Shown here in pieces: positions 1 to 11,973 of a DNA stretch of 12,209 nt. The notes under the pieces were generated by a model. That model made no database searches. It saw nothing but the letters and a program-made list of their open reading frames with translations, and was not told the DNA's origin. The stretch lies in assembly GCA_003973375.1 (NCBI GenBank), contig QNYL01000153.1, forward strand, positions 1 through 12,209, written 5' to 3'. Both the position numbers and the translations under genes were made by a program. This DNA is from Flavobacteriia bacterium (GTDB lineage Bacteria; Bacteroidota; Bacteroidia; Flavobacteriales; Flavobacteriaceae). Numbering within the stretch: the stretch's first letter is position 1; the number at the start of each line of letters is the position of its first letter.

Positions 1-903
1 GAAAAAACTGCAGGAGATACTGAAATGACGATGGATTATTTCAGCAGAAAGGATATGAAATATGAAACTCCAAAAAATCTAAAAGGAAAAGAAAGGATTC
101 TTTGGAATTTTTATGGAACCAAACCCGGTCAGATTGTTCAGCCAAAAGGAATGTCTGCTGAAGAAGGGAAAAAGAGGAGATATCAAAATTATATTAAAGA
201 TTACCTGGCTTGCGTAAAATCGGTAGATGATAATATAGGTAGAGTAATGAAATATCTCGATGAACATGGTCTGGCCGATAATACCATTGTTATTGTTACA
301 GCGGATCAGGGTTTTTATCTGGGTGAGCATGGTTTCTTTGACAAAAGGTTTATTTATGAACCTTCGGTTAATATGCCACTTATTGTCAGATATCCTAATC
401 ATATCAAACCCGGTAGTGTGAACACAGATATCGTTACCAATATAGATTTTGCTCCTACTTTACTGGATCTGGCAGGTATTAAGACCAATCATAAAATGCA
501 GGGCAGTGATTTTACCCCTCTTTTATTTGGAAAAACACCAGAGAACTGGCAAACTGCAATGTATTACCATTATTACGAATTCCCTTACTGGCATCATGTA
601 CAGCCACATTACGGAATCAGGACCAAGCGCTATACTTTGGCACATTTCTATTACAATATAGATGTATGGGAATTGTATGACAATCAAAAAGACCCGGAAC
701 AGATCCATAATATCATTGATGATCCTGCCTACGCAGATGTGGTTAAAGATCTGAAAGCTCAGTTAAAACAACTGATGATCAAATTTGGCGACAACAAAAG
801 TCTGGATGAGTTTAGAGAGATCACCGATAAAAATTACGGAAACATCGTGAAAACGAAAAAAGGAGAACAAACCGTTCAGGATATTTTAACTGAGAAAAAA
901 TAA
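1..903 (+). CDS. S1-family sulfatase, 5'-truncated (N-acetylglucosamine-6-sulfatase-like)
   Basis: The reading frame is open from base 1, so the gene enters from the left edge and lacks its N-terminal half, including the CxPSR motif that carries the formylglycine cysteine. About 300 codons remain. Visible sulfatase marks are the second metal-binding segment TADQGFYLGEHGFFDKR, followed by the RYP...VTNIDFAPTLLDLAGI block common to S1 sulfatases, and a C-terminal block YGIRTKRYTLAHFY...WELYDNQKDPEQ. That C-terminal block is typical of bacterial sulfatases related to GlcNAc-6-sulfatases (mucin- or heparan-desulfating types, SulfAtlas S1_11-like). The expected reaction is hydrolysis of a sulfate ester on a sugar, in the periplasm or at the surface. 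The stop is 7 nt before the next sulfatase, so the two are probably one operon. The family call is solid. The exact substrate is inference, since the active-site half is missing. Confidence 0.9.
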   Translation, partial: EKTAGDTEMTMDYFSRKDMKYETPKNLKGKERILWNFYGTKPGQIVQPKGMSAEEGKKRRYQNYIKDYLACVKSVDDNIGRVMKYLDEHGLADNTIVIVTADQGFYLGEHGFFDKRFIYEPSVNMPLIVRYPNHIKPGSVNTDIVTNIDFAPTLLDLAGIKTNHKMQGSDFTPLLFGKTPENWQTAMYYHYYEFPYWHHVQPHYGIRTKRYTLAHFYYNIDVWELYDNQKDPEQIHNIIDDPAYADVVKDLKAQLKQLMIKFGDNKSLDEFREITDKNYGNIVKTKKGEQTVQDILTEKK

Positions 904-910
904 AATCTTT

Positions 911-2518
911 ATGATAAAAAAAATATTTTTAATAATAAGCACATTGCTTTTCGGGATGATTCTCTTTTCATCCTGTTCAGAAAAAAAAGAGGAAGTAAAG
1001 CAAGAACCCGATAAAAAGATGAATGTACTTTTTATTGCCATAGACGATTTGAAACCTATTTTGGGTGCTTACGGAGATAAATTTGTCATCAGTCCGAACA
1101 TTGATAAAATAGCCGAACACGGAACAATCTTTACCAATAATCACTGTCAGTATGCGGTATGCGGCCCTTCAAGAGCCAGTCTGCTTTCCGGTCAGAGGCC
1201 GGATTACACACAGATCCTGAATTTAAAAACCCTCATCAGAGACAAAAGACCTGATGTGGTAACCCTGCCTCAGCATTTTAAAAATAACGGATACAATACT
1301 TTCGGGGTTGGAAAAATTTTTGATCCCCGTTCTGTAGATAAGTTTCAGGATAAAGCCTCCTGGACCGATTATATTTATATGAAAGATCTGAAATTCCATG
1401 AAGGCTATAACCCGCCTGAGTTTGGTTATTATCAGAGTCCTGAACATTTGAAAAAAATTGCAGAGCTCCGTAAAGAAGCTAAAGCAAAAGGTCTGTCCGA
1501 TAAGGAAGTAAGAAAATATATTCTGAAACGTTACAAGGTGGCCTGGGAAAAAGCAGACGTCCCTGATGATGCTTATGAAGACGGAGCAATCTTAAACGGA
1601 GGAATAGAACTGATGAAAAAAGCGGTAAAAGCCGACAAACCTTTCTTTCTGGCTGTAGGCTTTAAAAGACCACATTTACCTTTTAATTCTCCTACTAAAT
1701 ACTGGGATCTTTATGATGAAAGCAAAGTGCCTTTATCTCTCAATCAGGAAAAATCTGAGAACGGATTTGATCTGGCTTACCAGCCTTCCTGGGAGTTGAG
1801 TTCGTATAAAGTACCGGGTTATACTTACAAAGAGATCGATGGTGTGATCAGAATACCCGAAAAGCAGCAGCGACAATTGATTCACGGTTATTACGCAGCA
1901 ACTTCATATGTTGATGCACAGATAGGTAAACTGATGGAGGAGCTGAAGAAAGAAGGTCTGGAAAAGAATACCATAGTAATCCTTTGGGGGGATCACGGCT
2001 GGCATCTGGGAGATCACAGCATGTGGAACAAACATACCGATTTTGAACAGGCAACCCGTTCGCCGATGATTATTTTTGATCCGAGAGTAGGGAAGAAGAT
2101 CGAGATTTCAAGTCCTACTGAGTTTGTTGATATTTATCCCACCTTATGTGAAATGACCGGAATTGATTTGCCCGAAGATCTAGCGGGCTTATCCTTAAAA
2201 CCTATGGTTGAAGGTAAAAAGGACAGGCTTAAAGAATATGCTTTCTCGGAAATTACAAGGAATGATGAAGATGTGATCGGATATACCCTGAGGAATGACC
2301 GGTACAGATATACAGCGTGGATGACCAACCATCCTATGCTGATGAAAAAATATGATCCTAAAAATCAGATCGGTGAGGAATTATACGATTATAAGGTTGA
2401 TCCGCTGGAGAAGAAGAGTTTTATTAAAGATCCTGCCTATAAAGAAATTCTTGCTAAAATGAAAAAGGATTTTATCGACTATTTTAATAATAAAAGAGCT
2501 GTAAAAGGAGGAAAATAG
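911..2518 (+). CDS. S1-family sulfatase lipoprotein (iduronate-2-sulfatase-like)
   Basis: A complete 535-residue sulfatase. A hydrophobic N-terminus ends in LFSSC (Cys22), a plausible lipobox, so it is likely a membrane-anchored lipoprotein. The calcium-binding pair is Asp45-Asp46 in IAIDDLKP. The formylglycine motif is CGPSR at Cys84, followed by ASLLSGQRP; the cysteine would be oxidised by an anaerobic-type or FGE-type maturase not seen here. The second metal segment is GDHGWHLGDH (Asp361, His362) with WNKH (Lys374). The IAIDDLKP, GFKRPHLPF and SMWNKHTDFEQATRSPM blocks resemble iduronate-2-sulfatases (probably SulfAtlas S1_7), a family that also holds enzymes for algal sulfated glycans. Chosen start: the ATG that supplies a complete signal peptide, 7 nt after the upstream stop. 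No clear Shine-Dalgarno is seen, as is usual in this phylum. Substrate is unproven. Confidence 0.93.
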   Translation: MIKKIFLIISTLLFGMILFSSCSEKKEEVKQEPDKKMNVLFIAIDDLKPILGAYGDKFVISPNIDKIAEHGTIFTNNHCQYAVCGPSRASLLSGQRPDYTQILNLKTLIRDKRPDVVTLPQHFKNNGYNTFGVGKIFDPRSVDKFQDKASWTDYIYMKDLKFHEGYNPPEFGYYQSPEHLKKIAELRKEAKAKGLSDKEVRKYILKRYKVAWEKADVPDDAYEDGAILNGGIELMKKAVKADKPFFLAVGFKRPHLPFNSPTKYWDLYDESKVPLSLNQEKSENGFDLAYQPSWELSSYKVPGYTYKEIDGVIRIPEKQQRQLIHGYYAATSYVDAQIGKLMEELKKEGLEKNTIVILWGDHGWHLGDHSMWNKHTDFEQATRSPMIIFDPRVGKKIEISSPTEFVDIYPTLCEMTGIDLPEDLAGLSLKPMVEGKKDRLKEYAFSEITRNDEDVIGYTLRNDRYRYTAWMTNHPMLMKKYDPKNQIGEELYDYKVDPLEKKSFIKDPAYKEILAKMKKDFIDYFNNKRAVKGGK

Positions 2519-2549
2519 ATTTTGCTGGTCTTTACGAAAGGAATAATTA

Positions 2550-2708
2550 GTGTTTGTCCATAAAGTGCTTGGTTTTTGAAAGATTAAGATTTTTGATGAA
2601 TTTTTGTTTTTTTTATTGCAGCAAATGCTTGTGTATTAGGCAAAATAAAAAAAGGAAAAAGACGCAAAAAGATAATTTTTTCAATTCGATGACTTTATGG
2701 ACAGACAC
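2550..2708. mobile_element. MITE-like non-autonomous element with terminal inverted repeats
   Basis: A 159-bp AT-rich stretch begins GTGTTTGTCCATAAAGT and ends ACTTTATGGACAGACAC. The two ends are inverted repeats with one mismatch. The match extends outward so that 2545-2566 pairs with 2692-2713 at 21 of 22 positions. The element is flanked on both sides by TAATTA (2544-2549 and 2709-2714), a candidate target-site duplication, although this hexamer is itself palindromic and so also adds to the inverted repeat. The interior has T-rich then A-rich arms that could extend the fold, and no ORF. It sits in the gap after the sulfatase operon. The size, ends and lack of coding content fit a MITE mobilised in trans by an IS transposase. 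The IS family is not identified. Alternative: a long regulatory hairpin. Confidence 0.72.
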
Positions 2709-2750
2709 TAATTAGTTTCTGACAGGCAAAAAAACCATTTCACCCCTTTT

Positions 2751-2790
2751 AAAACCCAAATAGCACCTCTGTGCTGTTTGGGTTTTATTA
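2751..2790 (+). terminator. Rho-independent terminator after the sulfatase operon
   Basis: A 16-bp stem (2751-2766 with 2771-2786) around the loop CTCT has one G·T wobble. It begins AAAACCCAAA and ends TTTGGGTTTT, followed by a T-rich run. It lies beyond the MITE-like element and just before the next gene, so it should end transcripts from the sulfatase pair and isolate the downstream gene. The symmetrical A/T flanks would also allow some activity on the other strand. Confidence 0.85.
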
Positions 2791-2823
2791 TTTTTACTCG
2801 TGAAATAATAACTTAAATTTAAT

Positions 2824-4056
2824 ATGATGAAAATAATTACTCTTTTATTGATGTTTTTTGTAGCATCAATCTCTTTACAAGCACAAACTTGGGATTTTAA
2901 TAATTCTAAAGATGGTTGGAAAAATATAGCTTCAACCCAAAAGACGAAATCAGATTACTGGGAATTAACAAGTAAGGATGGTGTGAATAATCCCGGACTC
3001 AAAATTGCTGCAGCAGATATGACAACAGCGCCAGATGTTACAGCTGTACATATATTGGCTATTACAATGAAAAATAAAAGTGCAACTGGTCCAAATGGTA
3101 TTAGATTGGTTATGGAAACTGAAGGGCATGCTGATGCAGGTAAGAAAAATGTTGATGTTGAAATTTCACAGGGGGATACAGATTATCAAACTTACTATTT
3201 AGATGTGTCTAGTCCAAAGTGGGTTGGTACAGTTAAGGAGATAAAAATTTTATTTAAAAATTATAAGAATCAAAATTTTACAGGAACAGGTAATGAAGTT
3301 TTTGATATTGATAAAGTTGAGATGCTTTCATCAATACCAACAACTGAAAAACATAATTTTACTTTTGATACAGATGGTGATCAGGAAGGTTTTGTAGAAA
3401 AGAATGTTAATTCGATAAGTGTTGCCGGAGGGATCTTAACATTAGATCCTAAAGTAGATAAATACTCTAATATACAGCAGGTAGATCATCATCTGGATGC
3501 AAGTACTTACGGAACTCTGGAGATTAAGTTAAAAAATAATTCTACCGATGACGATACTTTATATTTTGTATTTCCTGATGGAAGCACTAAAGAACTTACT
3601 ATAACAACCAGTGATACAGCTTTTAAAACATATAAAATGGACTTGATGGGTAATGCTGAATGGACAGGTGAAGTTACTGGTTTTAAAATTCGTTTTGGTG
3701 ATGCTAGCAGACCAAATCCAAATGATGCTACCAAGTTTGGAGTTTCTTCCGGAACAGGCACAATTGAGATAGACAAGATTACTTTTACCAGTGAAGTCTT
3801 GGCTGTAGATGATGTTGACTTGGTGGATGATGCCAAGATCAGTCTGTATCCTAATCCAACCTGTGATTTACTATCTGTTCATGCGCCAAAACCTATAGAA
3901 AAGATAGAGATTTATAATATGCTTGGTCAAAAAGCAATGTCGAAAACAGACAGCTTAAAAACGCTGAATATTTCCCAACTGGAGAAAGGAATTTATGTTT
4001 TAAAGATCTATCAGGAAGGAAATATAGTTTCTTCAAAGCGATTTATAAAGCAATAG
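2824..4056 (+). CDS. Secreted protein with two tandem beta-sandwich-like modules and T9SS sorting domain
   Basis: 410 residues. Signal peptide at about 1-21 (hydrophobic core, cleavage near LQAQ). Two related modules follow, about residues 22-170 and 177-323. Each opens with an aromatic/Asp segment (TWDFNNSKDGW; FTFDTDGDQEGF), has a matched central block (YQTYYLDVSSPKWVGTVKEI; FKTYKMDLMGNAEWTGEVTG) and closes with a matched strand (FDIDKVEM; IEIDKITF). This shows an internal duplication. The fold looks like the carbohydrate-binding beta-sandwich modules common in Bacteroidota secreted proteins, but I see no catalytic motif and cannot assign a CBM family. The C-terminal ~75 residues (ISLYPNP...IEIYNMLGQK...GIYVLKIY) form a type A T9SS sorting domain, so the protein is exported through the outer membrane and probably surface-held. 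Glycan binding for the neighbouring GH5 is inference. ATG codons at 2824 and 2827 are equally possible starts. Confidence 0.85.
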   Translation: MMKIITLLLMFFVASISLQAQTWDFNNSKDGWKNIASTQKTKSDYWELTSKDGVNNPGLKIAAADMTTAPDVTAVHILAITMKNKSATGPNGIRLVMETEGHADAGKKNVDVEISQGDTDYQTYYLDVSSPKWVGTVKEIKILFKNYKNQNFTGTGNEVFDIDKVEMLSSIPTTEKHNFTFDTDGDQEGFVEKNVNSISVAGGILTLDPKVDKYSNIQQVDHHLDASTYGTLEIKLKNNSTDDDTLYFVFPDGSTKELTITTSDTAFKTYKMDLMGNAEWTGEVTGFKIRFGDASRPNPNDATKFGVSSGTGTIEIDKITFTSEVLAVDDVDLVDDAKISLYPNPTCDLLSVHAPKPIEKIEIYNMLGQKAMSKTDSLKTLNISQLEKGIYVLKIYQEGNIVSSKRFIKQ

Positions 4057-4080
4057 TTTAGAGAACAGTCTAATAATAAT

Positions 4081-4117
4081 CTCCGGAATCTAAGAAATTG
4101 ATTCTGAGATTCCGGAG
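4081..4117 (+). terminator. Stable hairpin, probable terminator after the two-module protein
   Basis: A perfect 11-bp stem (CTCCGGAATCT at 4081-4091 with AGATTCCGGAG at 4107-4117) extends inward by four more pairs past one mismatch, leaving a 5-nt loop. It starts about 25 nt after the upstream stop codon. The downstream tract is AT-rich (TTAATAATTAATAA) rather than a clean run of T, so termination may be weak. It could instead protect the 3' end of the mRNA. Confidence 0.6.
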
Positions 4118-4141
4118 TTAATAATTAATAATCCAGCAGTT

Positions 4142-4210
4142 TTGAAAAAAAATAATATTTTAGTGGTCTTATATCTGATCCTGTTTCTTATTGCCATTTT
4201 ATCAGCTTAA
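4142..4210 (+). CDS. Possible 22-residue hydrophobic peptide (TTG start)
   Basis: In the gap between the two-module protein and the small secreted protein, a TTG-initiated frame encodes two lysines and two asparagines followed by an unbroken hydrophobic run (ILVVLYLILFLIAILSA), then TAA. The pattern is that of a one-helix membrane peptide or an isolated signal sequence. No ribosome-binding site is evident, and TTG is a weak start, so it may be non-coding or a relic of a lost secreted protein. Confidence 0.22.
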   Translation: MKKNNILVVLYLILFLIAILSA

Positions 4211-4275
4211 AATCACAGTTTTAAAAAGTTTTTGAATATAAGTCGGTCTTTTTACAAACATAAAAACATATAAAA

Positions 4276-4629
4276 ATGAAAAAAATATTCTTATTAGTAT
4301 TCTTAACGGGTTTTGCACTTACTGTAAGTGCTCAAAAGAAGCAATCTCATAAAAAAAGAGCAATTGCTCAAACAGATTATGTTTCAAGCAGAATGAATTT
4401 TAATGATGAACAGAAATTATTTTTATTCAATGCTTTACTTGAGAAATATGAAACAATATCCGGGCAGGTAAAAGGAAAGGGCTTAAGTAAAGAGGAAAGA
4501 AAAGCAATCTTTAAACAAAGCAATAAGGCCATGTATGATAAATTAAATACTAAATTCTCAAAGGGTGAGGTAAAAAAGATCAAGGCCTATTTAAAAGAGT
4601 TTCAGGAGAAGAACAGGAAAAAGCGTTGA
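4276..4629 (+). CDS. Small secreted basic helical protein, function unknown
   Basis: 117 residues. A typical signal peptide (MKKIFLLVFLTGFALTVSAQ) is followed by a lysine-rich, mainly helical mature part with no cysteine. The pattern of a helix starting MNFNDEQKLFLFNALLEKY, a linker with KGLSKEERKAIF and a C-terminal helix KKIKAYLKEFQEKNRKKR recalls small periplasmic LTxxQ/CpxP-like or DUF4890-type proteins of Bacteroidota, but the LTxxQ signature is not clear and I do not assign a family. It lies between two T9SS cargo genes and ends before a terminator hairpin, so it may be its own transcription unit. A periplasmic chaperone or stress role would be inference only. Confidence 0.75.
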   Translation: MKKIFLLVFLTGFALTVSAQKKQSHKKRAIAQTDYVSSRMNFNDEQKLFLFNALLEKYETISGQVKGKGLSKEERKAIFKQSNKAMYDKLNTKFSKGEVKKIKAYLKEFQEKNRKKR

Positions 4630-4676
4630 TTTCTAAAATAAAGACATAAAATTTTTTTGAGTTATTTTGAAAAAGG

Positions 4677-4720
4677 TCAATCACTGGAATTTCTGTAGGA
4701 ATTTCAGGATTGATTTTTTT
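4677..4720 (+). terminator. Intrinsic terminator 20 nt upstream of the GH5 start codon
   Basis: An imperfect stem of about 15 pairs (4677-4692 with 4699-4713), with one bulged A and two G·T pairs, has a short loop and is followed by seven T (4714-4720). It fits a Rho-independent terminator for the small upstream gene. Its run of T ends 5 nt before the ATG at 4726 and 20 nt before the ATG at 4741. There is almost no room for a separate promoter between it and the GH5 gene, so it may act as a partial terminator or attenuator. Confidence 0.72.
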
Positions 4721-4740
4721 ATTAAATGAATTGTATAAAA

Positions 4741-6291
4741 ATGAAGAATAATTTTTTTTTAATTTTTACTTTATGGTTCAGTATGTCAAATCTGGTTGCA
4801 CAGATTACACCTGAACAAATGGTAAAACGCATGGGACGGGGAATCAATATCGGGAATGTTTTAAGTGCTCCTGTAGAAGGGAACTGGGCACCAAAGATCA
4901 CATTAAAATATTTTCAGGATGTATCTGAAGCCGGCTTTACCTGTGTAAGGATTCCAATGGATTTCTTTGGCAGCAGAACCGGCGGGGATACCTCTATTTA
5001 TTCAAAAGCGGCCGGTACTTCAGATTCCTATACCGGAAATATTGATGATTATCAGGTGTCAGCATCCTATTTAAACAGAGTAGAACAGGTGGTGAACTGG
5101 GCACTTGGAGAAGGTCTTGTTACGATTATAGATTTTCACGGATCTACACTAAAAACGGAGTTCTTATATACTTTCGACAGGAAAAATAAGCATCCGGATA
5201 TAAAAACCGATCCGACCTCTGCCAAAAGGCTGGCCGATCTGGATAAATTTACCGCTATCTGGACAGCCATCTCAAAACGTTTTAAAAATACTTCTGAAAA
5301 CCTTTTGTTCGAGGTGGTCAATGAACCTTATTTTGAAATAGGAGAGGAAGATATGAATACGATCAATTCTAAGATCATTTCAGCCATTAGAAATACAGGA
5401 GGGAATAATGCAACGCGGAATATTATTATTACAGGAGGATTGAAAAATGCAGAAGAGGCTCCAACTACCATTAACCCTGCCATTCTGAATGGTGATGATC
5501 ATTTGATTGCAAGCTTTCATTATTATAAACCCAATGTTTTTACAAAATCAAGTATAGAAGGGAAAGATCAGAATTCCTGGGGATCAGCAGCCGATAAAGC
5601 AGCCATTGATGCTGCCTTTGATTCGGTGTTAAACTGGTCGGCAGATCATGATACTGAGATCCTGTTAGGAGAATTTGGCGCCGACAATAGTCTGGGTTAT
5701 GACTATTCTACGGGTGATCTGCATGTTGTAAATTCAAATTCTACCGGATTTGCCGACGGTGGGCCGGATAAGGCTTCCCGGGTAGCATATTACAGGTATT
5801 TGGCTGAGCAGGCCATAAACAGAGGATTTGCTTTTACGGTATGGGATGCCGGTCCGGAATCAAATAAAACCATCAATAAAAGAACTGATGCTTCTTCAAC
5901 CTATAATTATGATATCAGTCAGTTTAACGTAATATCCTATAATCCTAAAAATACGGTTAAAAGTACTGTTCAGGATACTTCAATCTGGGTTGAAGATGTA
6001 AAAGATGCATTGCTCACAGCCGGGGAATGGCCCCTTGCTGTTGATGATGAGGTTGCTGTAAAAGATTTTGTAAAGATCTATCCGAATCCTGCAAAGGAAT
6101 ATATCAGTATTGCTTCTGAAAATCCTGTAAAAAAGCTGTCTGTTTATTCGGTTTTGGGAAGAAAATTATTTGAGAAAAGCAATACAAAACAAATAACAGA
6201 CCTTATTGATCTGAAAGCCGGAGTTTACCTGATCAGAATCATACTGGAAAACGGAAATGTATATTCAGACAAATTTATTATTGAAAAATAA
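4741..6291 (+). CDS. Secreted GH5 family glycoside hydrolase with T9SS sorting domain
   Basis: 516 residues from the ATG at 4741, preferred over the in-frame ATG at 4726 because it gives a standard signal peptide (MKNNFFLIFTLWFSMSNLVAQ); the earlier start would add MNCIK. The catalytic domain (about 24-400) has the GH5 (beta/alpha)8 marks: RGINIGNVLSAP at the start, RIP (Arg70), DFHG (His133), the acid/base glutamate in EVVNEP (Glu195), HYY (His260), the nucleophile in LLGEFG (Glu311) and a late active-site Trp in FTVWDAG (Trp368). It should cleave beta-linked glucan-, mannan- or related polymers with retention. The subfamily is not assigned. The C-terminal ~75 residues (IYPNPAKEYISI...LSVYSVLGRKLF...GVYLIRI) are a T9SS type A sorting domain, so it is secreted or cell-surface. 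The HTCS gene follows 71 bp downstream on the same strand and is its likely regulator. Confidence 0.93.
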   Translation: MKNNFFLIFTLWFSMSNLVAQITPEQMVKRMGRGINIGNVLSAPVEGNWAPKITLKYFQDVSEAGFTCVRIPMDFFGSRTGGDTSIYSKAAGTSDSYTGNIDDYQVSASYLNRVEQVVNWALGEGLVTIIDFHGSTLKTEFLYTFDRKNKHPDIKTDPTSAKRLADLDKFTAIWTAISKRFKNTSENLLFEVVNEPYFEIGEEDMNTINSKIISAIRNTGGNNATRNIIITGGLKNAEEAPTTINPAILNGDDHLIASFHYYKPNVFTKSSIEGKDQNSWGSAADKAAIDAAFDSVLNWSADHDTEILLGEFGADNSLGYDYSTGDLHVVNSNSTGFADGGPDKASRVAYYRYLAEQAINRGFAFTVWDAGPESNKTINKRTDASSTYNYDISQFNVISYNPKNTVKSTVQDTSIWVEDVKDALLTAGEWPLAVDDEVAVKDFVKIYPNPAKEYISIASENPVKKLSVYSVLGRKLFEKSNTKQITDLIDLKAGVYLIRIILENGNVYSDKFIIEK

Positions 6292-6362: not shown

Positions 6363-9300
6363 ATGAAGAACCGTTTAACTCTATTTTTCTTATTGTTCCA
6401 GATCTTTGCAATCCGGTCAGCATATTCTCAATTGAGATTCAATCATATTTCAGGAGATGAGGGATTATCACATAACACCATTCGCAGTCTCATTCAGGAT
6501 AAAGACGGATTTATATGGATTGGTACATATAACGGAATCAACAAGTACGATGGTTATAGCATGCAACATTATAACTTTTCGAATACTGAAAACGGCTTGA
6601 GCAGTAATATTATTATTACTTTATTTGAAGATCTTAAAGGGAACATCTGGGCAGGCACCACCGATGCAGGAATCAACAGAATAGATAAAGAAACAGGCAG
6701 AGTTGATGTATATTTTAACGATAAACTTTCTCCTGATTATATCAGTGAAGTTACCGAATTCTTTCAAGATAAATCAGGAGTAATGTTTTTCCAGCATAAT
6801 AACGGGATCAAGGTTTTTGAGGTTGATGATGATGGTAAACTTTTGTTTAAAAAAGTAATAACTTCTGTAAAAGGGAAAGCACTGCAAATACAAAATATAA
6901 CGCGATCTGAAGATGGTAATCACTGGATATATTCATCACTGGACAGTATCAAACTGAGCAAACTAATTCTTGATAAAAAAAATGATTCCCTATCGGTTGA
7001 GATCAAAGAAACAGATGTACGTTTTTTAAATTTAAAGAAAGAAATTCCTGTCAACATATTTGAATATCCTGAAAATACACTCTGGTTGGTTACAAACAGA
7101 TTAAATCTGATTAAAATTAAGTTAGATGATAATTTGAAGGAAATAAGAAAAGAATATATTGACCTTAAAAATGGAAACAAATCTCTTTTGCAGAAAAAAT
7201 ATGCAAAGTTTAAAATAGTACTAGATAAGAAGAATAACCTGTGGATTGCCAGAGACGATATCTTAATAAAATACAAGCCCGAAACAGGTGAATTACAAAG
7301 ATTTGAAAGTAAACATATTCCGAAGGATATTTATGATATTTATATAGATTATTCCAATATCCTTTGGCTGGGAACCATGAATAACGGTTTGTATAATATC
7401 GATCTTGATAACAATACTTTTTCTAATTCTAATGATTATATTCAGGATGCTGCATTCGAAAAGTATCCCATTCTTGCGGTTACAAAAGATAATTCCGGGA
7501 ATATGTGGTTTGGATTCCAAAAGTATGGCGGATTATTCACGATCAAAGAAGATGATATCATTAAGAGTCATAATTCCGGACAGGATAAAGCCTGGAAAGT
7601 AAAGAGAATTGATGATCAATGGAAGAATATTTCCCTGAAAGAGATCAAGAGGCTGATGAAAGACCGTAGAGGTAATATCTGGGTTGGCAGCAGGGGAGCG
7701 GTAAGTAGGATCTCACAAAAAAAAGGATCAAAAAAGTACAGTATTACCTCTTTTGATAATATAAAAGATAAAAATGGGAAGAAAATTATTAATGCTGCAT
7801 TTGCCCTGGAAGAGGACAAGGAAGGAAATATCTGGGCAGGATACTGGATCGACGGTCTTGTTAAACTGGAGCTTGATAAACAGGGTAAATTAAAAAAAAC
7901 CACAAACTACCAATTCTCAAAGGATGATCAGGGAAGTCTTTCCAATAATTATATCAGGGATATTCTGGAGGATTCCAAAGGAAGGATCTGGATAGGTACG
8001 ATAGGAGGATTAAACAGGTTGGTTTACAATAAACAAGGTGAACCTTATTTTGAACACTATCTGTTCAACGAAGATGACAGAAGAAGTTTGAGTAACAACT
8101 ATGTTCTTGACATTTTTGAATCAAAAGAGGGAGATATTTATATAGGAACTTTTGGGGGAGGACTCAACAAATTACAGATCTCAGATGAGGGTAAGATCAC
8201 ATTTCAACATTATACTACAAAAGAGGGTTTACCCAGTGATGTGATCTTTCAGATAAGGGAAGATAAAAATGGTTATATCTGGATGCAACACGTTAGAGAG
8301 ATTTCAAAATTGAATCCCAAATCAGGAGAGATCAAATATTTCGATAGACAGGATGGGTTTTCTGTAACTGAGTTTAAAGAGAATACGATGTTTTATTCTC
8401 AGAAAGGCTTGATGCTTTTGGCCGGAGTAAATGGTTTTACTTTCTTTTTTCCTGATGAAATGAGCGTTAATACGATTAAACCAAAATTGGCCATTGAAGA
8501 TTTTAAATTATTTAATGAATCAGTAAAGCCTCTGGAAAGAGTAAAAAATCATCTGATTCTTAATAAAGACATTAATGACACCAAAAAGATTGTCCTTCCC
8601 TATTATTTGAATTCGATAGAATTTGTCTTTTCAAGTCTTCATTTCTCCAACCCTGAAAAGAATCAGTATAAATATATCCTTGAGGGTTTTAATGATAAAT
8701 GGCAGTTGTCAAAAGGAAACAAACGAAGATTTGCTTCTTATACCAATGTTCCACCGGGTAATTATACCTTTAAAGTATATGGTTCTAACAGCTCAGGTGT
8801 ATGGATTGACAAACCCAAGCAAATAGAGATTGTAATCAATTCTCCCTGGTATTTAACTCCTTGGTTTATAGCATTATTTATTTTATTAGGCATTTTAATT
8901 TTGTATATTTTAATCAGAATCCGAATGAATCAGATCCGGCTTCAGAGTCAGTTGGCTCTTGAAGGGGCATTACACGAAAAATCAGATGAGATCAACAAGA
9001 TGAAATTACAGTTCTTTACCAATATATCTCATGAACTACGAACACCGCTTACGTTGATTATTGGACCTTTACAACAGATCATGCAGGGAAACGATAACCC
9101 TGTATATTTAAAGAAACTGAATACGATAATGTATAAAAACTCTTTGAGACTCTTAAAACTGATCAATCAGTTGCTCGATTTTAGAAAAGCAGAATCCGGA
9201 GGAGTCAGCCTGATTGTAAAAAATGATGATTTAGTTGAATTTGTAGGAGGAATTTGTAATGCATTTGAGGAAGTCGCTCTTAATAAAGAAATAAAGTTTG

Positions 9301-10586
9301 TGTATTTGCCCGAAGAAAAATCAGTGGATGCATGGTTTGATAGTGACAAGGTAGAGAAGATATTGTACAATCTTTTGTCTAATGCATTTAAATTCACGCC
9401 GAAGAATAAAAGTATTAAAGTAACTTTACAAAAGCGTACAGAAAGCGGAATAGATTACGCCATAATTAAGATAATTGATTACGGAATAGGAATACCCGAG
9501 GATGAACTCAACAATATTTTTGAAAGATTTTATCAGGCAAAGAAAGAGAACAATATTATGAATGTTGGCAGCGGACTTGGCCTGGCTTATACAAGACAAC
9601 TGGTAGAAATTCATAAAGGAAAAATAAAAATTGAAAGTAAATTGCATGAAGGAACCACCTGTACCATAGATATTCCTGTTTCCAGATCGGCTTTTGATGA
9701 AAAATCTATTTTGGAATCACAACTTAATAATTATGATTTCAGATATACCAGAAAAGAGATTGAGGATATGAAAGATCTTGAGGCTGATATACCTGTAGAA
9801 CATGAAAATATTAAAGATTCAGATGCGCCAACGCTTCTGATTGTAGAAGATAACAAGGAACTGCAAGATTATTTATATAATTATTTTACTGTTAATTATC
9901 ATGTGCTGATTGCAGATAATGGAGAAATTGGTCGGGAACTTGCTCTGAAGAATTCTCCTGATATCATTATCAGTGATCTGATGATGCCTGTAATGGATGG
10001 AATAGAGATGTGTAAAAGGATCAAAACTGATATCAATACAAGTCATATACCGGTAATCATTTTAACGGCAAAGGCCGGTATTGAGAACGAAAAAGAAGGT
10101 CTCGAAACAGGAGCAGATGAATTTGTATTAAAACCATTTAATATAGAGATTTTAAAGTTAAGAGTTGAAAATATTTTAAAATCAAGACGAAAATGGATAA
10201 AAAAATACAGAAAAAATTCTGATTTTGAATCTGTAGAAGGGCTTTCGAACAGTTTAGATCAGAAATTCCTTGAGAAAGCTGTTTCCATCATAAAAGACAA
10301 TATGGATAATCCTGATTTTTCCGTAGAGATCTTTGCCTCGGAAATTGCAATGAGCAGATCAACGTTGTTTAAAAAATTAAAATCGATTACCGGTTTGTCT
10401 ACTTCAGAATTTATCAGGTCGATCAGAATAAAGAGAGCTGCAAAACACCTGAGATCGGGAGAATATTCAATAACGGAGGTGATCTTTATGGTAGGTTTTT
10501 CCGATCCTAAATATTTTAGAACCTGTTTTAAGAAACAATTTGGTAAAACCCCAAGTGAATATATAAAATCGCTAAAGAAAGAATAA
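6363..10586 (+). CDS. Hybrid two-component system sensor/response regulator (HTCS)
   Basis: 1407 residues, full length for the family. Signal peptide at 1-22. The periplasmic sensor has about a dozen recognisable beta-propeller strands of the form DxxGxIWIGT (for example residues 47-55, 90-98, 434-442, 485-493, 537-545), fitting two seven-bladed propellers. A Y_Y_Y domain (about 765-827) is followed by one membrane helix (831-853). In the cytoplasm come HisKA with the phosphorylated histidine in NISHELRTP (His890), and a HATPase with N box NLLSNAFKFTP (1003-1013), DYGIGIP (1039-1045) and GSGLGLA (1069-1075). A receiver follows with VEDN (1161-1164), phospho-acceptor Asp1205 in ISDLMMP, Thr1235 and Lys1257, then an AraC-type HTH (about 1300-1405, ending PSEYIKSL). 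Such proteins bind glycan oligosaccharides and switch on polysaccharide-utilisation genes. All phosphorelay residues are present, so it should be active. The likely targets are the genes upstream. The 71-bp leader holds TAnnTTTA-like -7 candidates but no convincing -33 element. Confidence 0.97.
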   Translation: MKNRLTLFFLLFQIFAIRSAYSQLRFNHISGDEGLSHNTIRSLIQDKDGFIWIGTYNGINKYDGYSMQHYNFSNTENGLSSNIIITLFEDLKGNIWAGTTDAGINRIDKETGRVDVYFNDKLSPDYISEVTEFFQDKSGVMFFQHNNGIKVFEVDDDGKLLFKKVITSVKGKALQIQNITRSEDGNHWIYSSLDSIKLSKLILDKKNDSLSVEIKETDVRFLNLKKEIPVNIFEYPENTLWLVTNRLNLIKIKLDDNLKEIRKEYIDLKNGNKSLLQKKYAKFKIVLDKKNNLWIARDDILIKYKPETGELQRFESKHIPKDIYDIYIDYSNILWLGTMNNGLYNIDLDNNTFSNSNDYIQDAAFEKYPILAVTKDNSGNMWFGFQKYGGLFTIKEDDIIKSHNSGQDKAWKVKRIDDQWKNISLKEIKRLMKDRRGNIWVGSRGAVSRISQKKGSKKYSITSFDNIKDKNGKKIINAAFALEEDKEGNIWAGYWIDGLVKLELDKQGKLKKTTNYQFSKDDQGSLSNNYIRDILEDSKGRIWIGTIGGLNRLVYNKQGEPYFEHYLFNEDDRRSLSNNYVLDIFESKEGDIYIGTFGGGLNKLQISDEGKITFQHYTTKEGLPSDVIFQIREDKNGYIWMQHVREISKLNPKSGEIKYFDRQDGFSVTEFKENTMFYSQKGLMLLAGVNGFTFFFPDEMSVNTIKPKLAIEDFKLFNESVKPLERVKNHLILNKDINDTKKIVLPYYLNSIEFVFSSLHFSNPEKNQYKYILEGFNDKWQLSKGNKRRFASYTNVPPGNYTFKVYGSNSSGVWIDKPKQIEIVINSPWYLTPWFIALFILLGILILYILIRIRMNQIRLQSQLALEGALHEKSDEINKMKLQFFTNISHELRTPLTLIIGPLQQIMQGNDNPVYLKKLNTIMYKNSLRLLKLINQLLDFRKAESGGVSLIVKNDDLVEFVGGICNAFEEVALNKEIKFVYLPEEKSVDAWFDSDKVEKILYNLLSNAFKFTPKNKSIKVTLQKRTESGIDYAIIKIIDYGIGIPEDELNNIFERFYQAKKENNIMNVGSGLGLAYTRQLVEIHKGKIKIESKLHEGTTCTIDIPVSRSAFDEKSILESQLNNYDFRYTRKEIEDMKDLEADIPVEHENIKDSDAPTLLIVEDNKELQDYLYNYFTVNYHVLIADNGEIGRELALKNSPDIIISDLMMPVMDGIEMCKRIKTDINTSHIPVIILTAKAGIENEKEGLETGADEFVLKPFNIEILKLRVENILKSRRKWIKKYRKNSDFESVEGLSNSLDQKFLEKAVSIIKDNMDNPDFSVEIFASEIAMSRSTLFKKLKSITGLSTSEFIRSIRIKRAAKHLRSGEYSITEVIFMVGFSDPKYFRTCFKKQFGKTPSEYIKSLKKE

Positions 10587-10596
10587 ACCTATCTCA

Positions 10597-10796
10597 TTAA
10601 TTGTTTGTTTTGTCAGCGTAATCTTTCTTATAATTGACACTAGCTTATAGGCTCTGGCTCTGCCATCCATATTCGACTGTCCCGCAAGGAAGAAAACCAT
10701 GATCTTTTTATCGTTCTTTTCTTTAGTGGTTTCAGTTTTAGAAGTACATCCAAAAAGAACCGATAAGGTGAATAGCAATAAAATTGAATTTTTCAT
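10597..10796 (-). pseudogene. SASA-type (sialate O-acetylesterase-like) lipoprotein gene, broken after ~52 codons
   Basis: From the ATG at 10794-10796 the frame encodes a lipoprotein signal with lipobox LFGC (Cys17), a charged linker, then MVFFLAGQSNMDGRARAYKL. The GQSNM block with Ser41 as nucleophile is the opening of SASA/DUF303 carbohydrate acetylesterases (CE6-type), which normally run a few hundred residues. Here recognisable homology stops at about residue 52 (near 10,640). The same frame then carries unrelated codons and ends at 10572. In another frame, ASVNYKKDYADKTNN followed by TAA at 10597-10599 reads like an ordinary protein C-terminus, suggesting that the middle of the gene was deleted and its ends joined out of frame. 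The gene begins 25 nt after the FucP-type permease stop, so the two probably formed an operon. The His/Asp part of the active site is absent, so no active enzyme is expected. Confidence 0.72.
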
Positions 10797-10821: not shown

Positions 10822-11166
10822 TTAGGCAGCCTGTGCCTGCAGTAATTTATCATGCTGGTTTGCTCTGTATGCAAAAATGGCAATGACAACAAAACTGATA
10901 AGCGGCAGAACGAATGAAGCATTTACAGCAGGTAGAGATCCCACTGTGCCCATGTCGATAATAGCTCCCTGTAAAGGAGGCATCAAAGCTCCTCCCACAA
11001 TGGCCATAACCAGCAATGCTGCTCCTAAAGTAGCATCTTCACCAACATCGCGTAAAGCAATTCCATATATGGTAGGGAACATCAGCGACATAAAGATTGA
11101 AGTGGCTACCAAACTGTACAGACCCCACATACCTTCTATAAAAATGGTTCCGCTAACGGTAATTAT
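10822..11166 (-). CDS. FucP-type sugar:H+ symporter (MFS), C-terminal fragment
   Basis: About 114 residues encode the last three membrane helices of an MFS permease: around SLVATSIFMSLMFPTIYGIAL, around GAALLVMAIVGGALMPPLQG, and around SFVLPLISFVVIAIFAYRA. The FMSLMFPTIYGIAL and IVGGALMPPLQG blocks closely follow L-fucose permease FucP and related glucose/galactose transporters (GluP) of Bacteroidota. The usual protein is about 400 or more residues, so roughly the first three quarters are missing. The missing part is not beyond a window edge: at about 11,164-11,172 the sequence changes into kelch-coding animal-type DNA. The fragment is therefore cut by the junction, not by a stop or frameshift. 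The protein would import a deoxyhexose or hexose released from glycans; fucose is inference. The gene is followed by the acetylesterase gene on the same strand. Confidence 0.88.
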   Translation of the reverse strand: MITVSGTIFIEGMWGLYSLVATSIFMSLMFPTIYGIALRDVGEDATLGAALLVMAIVGGALMPPLQGAIIDMGTVGSLPAVNASFVLPLISFVVIAIFAYRANQHDKLLQAQAA

Positions 11167-11172
11167 TCCACC
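11164..11172. other. Bacterium/animal DNA junction
   Basis: On the minus strand the protein reads VVIVDNMIFAIGG (kelch) and then IITVSGTIFIEGMWG (FucP-like membrane segment). The switch lies at or next to GGTGGAATA. The GGTGGA could be shared by both sides, so the exact breakpoint is uncertain by several bases. Left of it everything is low-GC and bacterial in content. Right of it codon use, composition and features are eukaryotic. Confidence 0.82.
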
Positions 11173-11315
11173 AATAGCAAAGATCATGTTGTCTACAATC
11201 ACCACACCGAGGCTGCGTCGAGGGGTCGGCATTGGGGACAACTGCTTTGTCTTGTTGGTGACAGGGTTGTACACCTCCACTGTAGGAAGAAGTTCTCTGT
11301 TGGATGTTTCACCAC
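11167..11315 (-). CDS. Kelch-repeat exon of an animal-type gene (partial)
   Basis: Read on the minus strand, the exon begins at 11315 directly after a canonical acceptor: a pyrimidine-rich tract TTTTCTGCTGTCTTGCAG at 11316-11333. The intron interrupts a codon after its first base (phase 1). The exon encodes about 49 residues, starting GETSNRELLPTVEVYNP and ending VVIVDNMIFAIGG. This is a kelch beta-propeller blade boundary: the VEVYNP strand, the P-M-P-T-P-R-R-S-L-G turn and the next IYAIGG-like strand seen in BTB-kelch (KLHL-like) animal proteins. The exon is cut at its 3' side by the junction with the permease fragment, so no donor site is seen. The upstream exon is not in the window. The particular KLHL-type gene and the animal cannot be named. 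Confidence 0.8.
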
Positions 11316-11628
11316 CTGCAAGACAGCAGAAAACATTGCATATCACAGACAAACGACAGTACTGTGCTCATGCTTTGATTGTTAACTGGTACATTACTGA
11401 TTAAGATACTGCAGTCATGTCCACATCTGCATGCATGTGTGAAGCAAACGCGTGTATGTGCCATATATATACTGGGTGTTTCAGGGGTGGGGGTGAGGGG
11501 TTGCTTCCACCACTTTGGTCAATGCATCTGTTTAGGGCCATTTTATTTTACTTGTAGGTGTTCCATAAATGTTGTACTTGATGAGAAATCTCTTTCATTT
11601 ATGGATACATATATTATAAATATGCAAA

Positions 11629-11826
11629 CCCTCCAATACTCTCCACTCAGCTTCTGATATTATCAGCTTCCAGATTCCTCCTATTAGATTTTCAACTGTT
11701 GGTTCCTGTACCTTTTCCCTCTCAAGACCCTCTACCTGCAATGACCTTCTCCTTCTTCTGTGAAGTGGACACTCTCTGGACTCATTCAAATCTGACTTGA
11801 AGACATCTCTTTTTCCAAAACAATAG
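11629..11826 (+). mobile_element. Decayed C-terminus of a non-LTR retrotransposon reverse transcriptase
   Basis: One frame, open from 11629 apart from a TGA at 11761, reads SNTLHSASDIISFQIPP, then RFSTVGSCTFSLSRPSTCNDL, then SGHSLDSFKSDLKTSLFPKQ and a TAG at 11824-11826. This follows, in order, the well-known tail of animal LINE reverse transcriptases: LRSASD..LxIPRTR, TVGxRxFSxxGPxxWNDLP, and SLxxFKSxLKTxLF. Decay is visible: TGC (Cys) where Trp is expected before ND at 11737, and TGA where Arg (CGA) is expected at 11761. The relic lies antisense inside the kelch-gene intron. The rest of the element is not in the window. The clade (jockey, RTE, CR1 or other) is not assigned. Confidence 0.78.
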
Positions 11827-11940
11827 TCTGAACATACCTGCCATATTTTCTGCTCTAAGCTCGTGTCTTTTTCTGCTGCAAGTCCCTGTATATTATCTTT
11901 TCCAGTTGCTTTCGAAATTGTGTATAGTGTGTATATTACT

Positions 11941-11973
11941 CGTGTGTGTGTGTGCGTGCGTGGGTGCGTGCGT
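11941..11973. repeat. Imperfect (GT)n / GTGC microsatellite
   Basis: A run of alternating GT units passes into GTGC and GTGG units and ends at GCGTGCGT. It is preceded by shorter GTGTATA repeats. Such interrupted dinucleotide tracts are common in animal introns and rare in AT-rich Bacteroidota genomes. Confidence 0.85.

Follow-up and report, generated by a model that had tools for sequence, protein, structure and literature searches.

A probable chimeric contig end between a bacterial fucP gene and an animal-type kelch exon in a draft genome of a Flavobacteriia bacterium

Gene content of the window

The window, i.e. the whole stretch of DNA analyzed here, is a complete contig of 12,209 bases (C30). 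It belongs to a draft genome whose 315 contigs add up to 2,089,819 bases, with a completeness of 75.7% and a contamination of 0.65%. The features are listed in Table 1. Judged from their sequences, the genes in the left 10.6 kb are those of an ordinary polysaccharide-utilisation locus. The Pfam domains found (sulfatases, GH5, Por tails, hybrid regulator) agree with an earlier interpretation made from the letters alone (the sequence-only reading), which had described a normal bacterial polysaccharide locus on this side. The far (left) contig end falls inside a bacterial sulfatase gene. A short ORF on the minus strand (10,572-10,796) weakly resembles the beginning of SASA-type acetylesterases (score below the cut-off); it is apparently a truncated gene and overlaps the end of the regulator. 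An Rfam search of the window gave no match.

Table 1. Features of the 12,209-base window, with strand and the evidence used for each assignment.
Feature	Position	Strand	Evidence
Sulfatase, 5' end lost at contig end (bacterial side)	1..903	+	Pfam Sulfatase 2.3e-20, SGSH_C 7.8e-65
Sulfatase (bacterial side)	911..2518	+	Pfam Sulfatase 1e-46
Protein with Por secretion C-terminal sorting tail	2824..4056	+	Pfam Por_Secre_tail 6.6e-13
Small ORF without family	4276..4629	+	Pfam search to E=0.01 empty
GH5 cellulase-family glycosidase with sorting tail	4726..6291	+	Pfam Cellulase 1.3e-41, Por_Secre_tail 9.7e-11
Hybrid two-component regulator	6363..10586	+	Reg_prop, Y_Y_Y, HisKA, HATPase_c, Response_reg, AraC HTH (Pfam)
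FucP-type permease, 3' quarter, bacterial side of junction	10822..11187	-	TIGR00885 4.7e-42 and 92% DNA identity to same-genus gene
Overlap MIFAIGG fitting both parents, which holds the join	11167..11187	-	G001 FucP reads MIFAFGG; P0001 reads MIFAIGG
Kelch exon with FucP in place of its 3' end	11167..11315	-	Pfam Kelch_1 1.9e-7; P0001 95% identical, P0003 and P0004 related
Non-bacterial (animal-type) segment to contig end	11188..12209	.	Extreme CpG, TG/CA and coding scores; single copy in own genome
Putative splice acceptor and pyrimidine tract	11316..11345	-	Read from sequence; compared with other kelch ORFs
Stop-free stretch, possible transposable-element relic	11598..11972	-	P0006 copy; no Pfam family
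Short GT/GC microsatellite	11944..11973	+	TRF scores 39 and 46

FucP fragment and its bacterial parent

The permease fragment matches the C-terminal 108 positions of the model for the L-fucose:H+ symporter FucP (TIGR00885, model positions 303-410, E=4.7e-42), whereas the first 302 model positions are absent; with 144.6 bits it lies below the curated cut-off of 280.4 bits. The closest relative compared, the same-genus genome G001, contains an intact fucP of 435 AA. Relative to this gene about 73% of the length is lost, in accordance with the loss of the first three quarters stated in the sequence-only reading. Using blastn, 92% DNA identity to G001 was obtained over 10,834-11,187 (28 mismatches in 354 bases), and past 11,187 the agreement falls to 13 of 50 bases, which is chance level. 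The mismatches are crowded near the junction: after 72 identical bases, 8 of the 28 lie within the 42 bases from 11,146 to 11,187.

With the FucP fragment as query, matches at E ≤ 0.001 were found in 43 of 60 genomes, the own genome being among the 60. Contigs of named genomes were also scanned with the fused ORF and the best 80 of at least 593 relatives were evaluated, whereby near records of the own genome were possibly left out. None of these best 80 had a match on the kelch side; the query start was residue 56 or later in 79 and residue 43 in one. The FucP family model gave four matches in the own genome, namely the window piece, one on contig C95 (model positions 2-381, 437-AA frame) and two on C93 (396-AA frame). 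The matches on C95 and C93 were considered as the lost 5' part of fucP and rejected; they were read as other, complete transporters.

In G001, fucosidase-like and sulfatase genes (named by eye) are located upstream of fucP. Contig C178 of the own genome matches this upstream DNA at 86% from its base 6. On the map of G001, the start of C178 lies 1,382 bases past the break in fucP, in the orientation continuing the window's contig; the first ORF of C178 is cut by the contig end inside the gene upstream of fucP. For the intervening ~1.38 kb (the first 1,382 bases of G001 DNA upstream of the break), no match was found in the bin. Since the contigs are numbered roughly by length and the shortest readable one of 100 examined has 3,035 bases, this piece of about 1.4 kb was presumably too short for binning. 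To the left of fucP the window is not syntenic with G001, fucP being the sole match within 19 kb; the adjacency of the window's contig and C178 is thus based on fucP and its upstream genes.

Kelch exon and splice acceptor

The kelch coding sequence described in the sequence-only reading to the right of the junction was recovered by Pfam (Kelch_1, E=1.9e-7) with a score of 30.9 bits, above the curated cut-off of 20.1. Kelch by itself is not diagnostic of an animal, since the family also gave matches in 4 of 14 prokaryote genomes used as controls. After designed kelch proteins, the best PDB matches were KLHL2, KLHL20, KLHL3 and KEAP1 (among 60 of 94 matches listed). Compared to animal BTB-kelch (KLHL) proteins, the window contains one kelch blade on a single exon, whose 3' end is cut; the remaining gene, in which BTB and BACK domains would be expected, is outside the contig.

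A search with residues 1-62 of the fused ORF against 5.8 billion proteins retrieved two proteins. P0001 is a 102-AA ORF on an ENA contig of 1,263 bases, and P0002 is a multi-kelch protein of 282 AA with 44% identity to the query, which is possibly prokaryotic. P0001 and the window are identical at 54 of 66 aligned residues and at 95% in the exon part; three of the differences occur up to ...VVIVDNMIFAIGG and nine beyond. Following MIFAIGG, P0001 continues kelch-exon-like with SDGLSALCTVE, whereas the window continues as FucP with IITVSGTIFIE. Searching with P0001 as query added P0003 (88%), P0004 (69%) and P0005 (39%, a kelch relative). P0003 and P0004 have the exon of the window, its GG start, the same frame and the SDG continuation. 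Viral contigs searched with the kelch ORF contained no relative.

Before GTGG the window reads TTTTCTGCTGTCTTGCAG, which, read from the sequence, gives a good putative splice acceptor with the cut between TTTTCTGCTGTCTTGCAG and GTGG. Similarity to the other kelch ORFs starts at the acceptor GG in two of three cases (P0003 and P0004). The splice acceptor with pyrimidine tract proposed in the sequence-only reading can be read from the sequence and is consistent with these two ORFs, but the agreement with P0001 starts slightly earlier and includes a few residues upstream of the acceptor GG. Similarity to KLHL proteins, the signs of an exon-intron structure and the CpG depletion reported below suggest that the kelch parent was an animal.

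Composition, repeats and copies of the right end

Base composition was determined for 78 end pieces of 1 kb from 39 contigs, one piece not being a true end (stretch cut at 20 kb). The last 1 kb of the window had the lowest CpG observed/expected ratio of all 78 pieces (0.40; mean 0.80), the highest TG/CA observed/expected ratio (1.38; mean 1.03) and, with -0.183, the lowest coding score, followed by a piece with -0.152. A wider scan used 600-base ends of 101 contigs, of which two consisting entirely of N were dropped and one, cut at 20 kb, contributed one end, which left 99 contigs with 197 scored ends. Here, the right end of the window ranked third on the combined score behind the left ends of C41 and C53; the latter is bacterial-looking and transposase-like (by eye).

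A GT microsatellite, as reported in the sequence-only reading, is present at 11,944-11,973, but it is weak and short (TRF scores 39 and 46). The LINE relic claimed there was not confirmed, as the stop-free stretch at 11,598-11,972 had no Pfam match up to E=10, though a copy exists on another public contig (P0006, 89% identical over 89 residues). The segment 11,188-12,209 has one copy in the own genome. The animal-side DNA was compared to 397 genomes of the family and 395 genomes of the order, two overlapping sets which each include the own genome. Besides the window itself, one chance-like match of 30 bases was obtained in the family set and one of 21 bases in the order set. Five other genomes of the same genus gave no match. 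A kelch search of the own genome gave 0 matches at E ≤ 0.001; as it missed the window's piece, too, it was blind to a single blade and carries no information on further kelch.

Position of the join

Both parents have the heptapeptide MIFA(I/F)GG in the same frame. The sequences at the join are LLMIFAFGGIITVTG for FucP of G001, VDNMIFAIGGSDG for the kelch ORF and VDNMIFAIGGIITVSG for the window. The similarity to kelch extends to about 11,167 (ORF residue 62) and the identity to FucP to 11,187. According to these alignments, the finest placement of the break is 11,167-11,187, where the two sides overlap by at most 21 bases. The junction seen in the sequence-only reading at 11,164-11,172 is thus real, but slightly displaced; instead of the replacement base to base also assumed there, the parents are joined within this common stretch. 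G001 differs at 4 of the 21 bases of the overlap, and the stretch shared by the bacterium itself may differ in length from 21. Across the join the frame is kept, which results in a fused kelch-FucP ORF of 176 AA. The two sides match different parents, and the FucP relative as well as P0001, P0003 and P0004 are each without the join.

The number of words shared by chance between a genome of 2.1 Mb and one of 0.5-2 Gb was estimated under the assumption of independent bases. This gives 477 to 6,190 shared 21-mers and 0.1 to 2.1 shared 27-mers.

Other contig ends of the draft genome

Twelve other contig ends were read by eye, and four of them were tested against genomes of the same genus; the remaining eight are bacterial-looking. 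As only these four were compared with relatives, the chimeric ends counted here are a minimum. Based on the alignments, two further ends are clearly chimeric (C55 right and C2 left), and C41 left and C5 right are likely chimeric, too.

At the right end of C55, ligA is cut and the identity to G001 (91%) ends at 9,251. Past this position, C55 contains a fragment of a sodium:solute symporter in opposite direction (Pfam SSF, 27.2 bits; cut-off 22.8), which had no match over its length in five other genomes of the same genus; one match of 31 bases in this five-genome set lies within the ligA part. As ligA is an essential gene, a real break within it is implausible. In C2, identity to G001 (87%) sets in at 625; the 624 bases before it had no match in the five other genomes of the same genus. 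This stretch (1-624) is non-coding and TG-rich. Possibly, it is animal DNA as well.

At the left end of C41, about 600 bases have a GC content of 20% and contain an ORF that includes two in-frame TGA codons; from 597 onwards, C41 matches G001. No family was matched and no long match was obtained in relatives. Five short matches in relatives (45-64 bases, E 2e-5 to 9e-4), all within the first 310 bases, were taken as chance matches of AT-rich DNA. Because of the two in-frame TGA, the 20% GC and the lack of a long match in relatives, the end probably originates from a bacterium reading TGA as glycine, Gracilibacteria- or SR1-like (the groups named in genetic code table 25). Where homology ends, the right end of C5 (16,832-17,491) continues with a 70-bp minisatellite and DNA lacking a match. 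It is the weakest of the four cases: the end of homology nearly coincides with a gene end, the end is outside the 22 top ends of the 197-end scan, and ordinary intergenic divergence could be the cause.

Origin of the junction

We consider it almost certain that the right end of the window is a chimeric contig end, i.e. a false join of bacterial and animal-type DNA, as far as this can be judged from sequence comparisons. A chimeric contig had been the preferred interpretation of the sequence-only reading, and it is now strongly supported by intact relatives of both parents, the shared stretch, contig C178 and the further chimeric ends. DNA of an animal-type kelch gene and the bacterial fucP would have been joined at the identical or nearly identical stretch ATGATCTTTGCTATTGGTGGA, which encodes MIFAIGG in the same frame in kelch and fucP. 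A length of 21 bases is a usual starting k-mer of an assembly. The join most likely arose by a false short overlap during assembly, rather than during amplification or library making. Several points weigh against the chimera reading: the kelch parent was matched through proteins and not through DNA, P0002 could be prokaryotic and kelch matches occur in prokaryote controls, P0001 might derive from the same sample, G001 has 4 mismatches in the overlap, the window left of fucP is not syntenic with G001, and its right end ranks third and not first in the 197-end scan.

If the join is an artefact, it could also have preceded sequencing, as a product of multiple displacement amplification, PCR or library ligation. 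Such an origin would fit the contig ends with several unrelated partners, and amplification chimeras likewise join at short shared words. The sequence comparisons suit this origin as well as an assembly error; we nevertheless hold it to be rather unlikely, as a k-mer overlap agrees well with a codon-aligned heptapeptide shared by both parents. In the sequence-only reading, real insertion of bacterial DNA into an animal genome had been named as the alternative; here, this would mean the lateral transfer of at least 11 kb of polysaccharide-utilisation genes of a Flavobacteriaceae member into an animal kelch gene. The clean join, with the reading frame kept from the kelch exon into FucP, would be in line with it. 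However, the bacterial genes are intact save for the sulfatase at the contig end and possibly the SASA-type ORF at 10,572-10,796, C178 of the same bin carries the genes that precede fucP, further chimeric ends occur in the same genome, one of them within ligA, and three public kelch ORFs are without an insertion at this site. Hence, the insertion is unsupported and highly improbable. Even less credible is a real acquisition of animal DNA by the bacterium. In its favour, the foreign DNA forms the terminus of a bacterial contig, but it comprises an exon with a putative splice acceptor, is depleted in CpG, shows no bacterial coding signal and has no credible copy in the genomes searched.

Read as a chimeric contig end, the junction reveals no biology, but it is a well-resolved case of how a false junction between a bacterium and an animal can arise. 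With its frame kept, the 176-AA ORF could pass for a kelch-FucP fusion protein during annotation. Given the further chimeric ends (two clear, two likely), gene fusions and gene neighbourhoods at the contig ends of this draft genome are not trustworthy. Chimeric sequence contamination is described as a known problem in reference genomes and metagenome-assembled genomes (PMC10978663, section 2.7). Compared to the description in that section, the present case is alike in that a single contig of a draft genome combines sequences of different organisms, and nothing essential differs; for this join, relatives of either parent can be named, and so can the stretch shared at the break.

From the junction, the sequence-only reading had also taken the bacterium to be a probable associate of an animal, living with or on it. 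The junction does not demonstrate this, because other ends are joined to a symporter fragment and to very AT-rich DNA of a probable TGA-recoding bacterium. The draft assembly appears to join the bacterium to other bacteria as well, and sharing a contig indicates at most that the DNA was present in the same sequenced or pooled sample.
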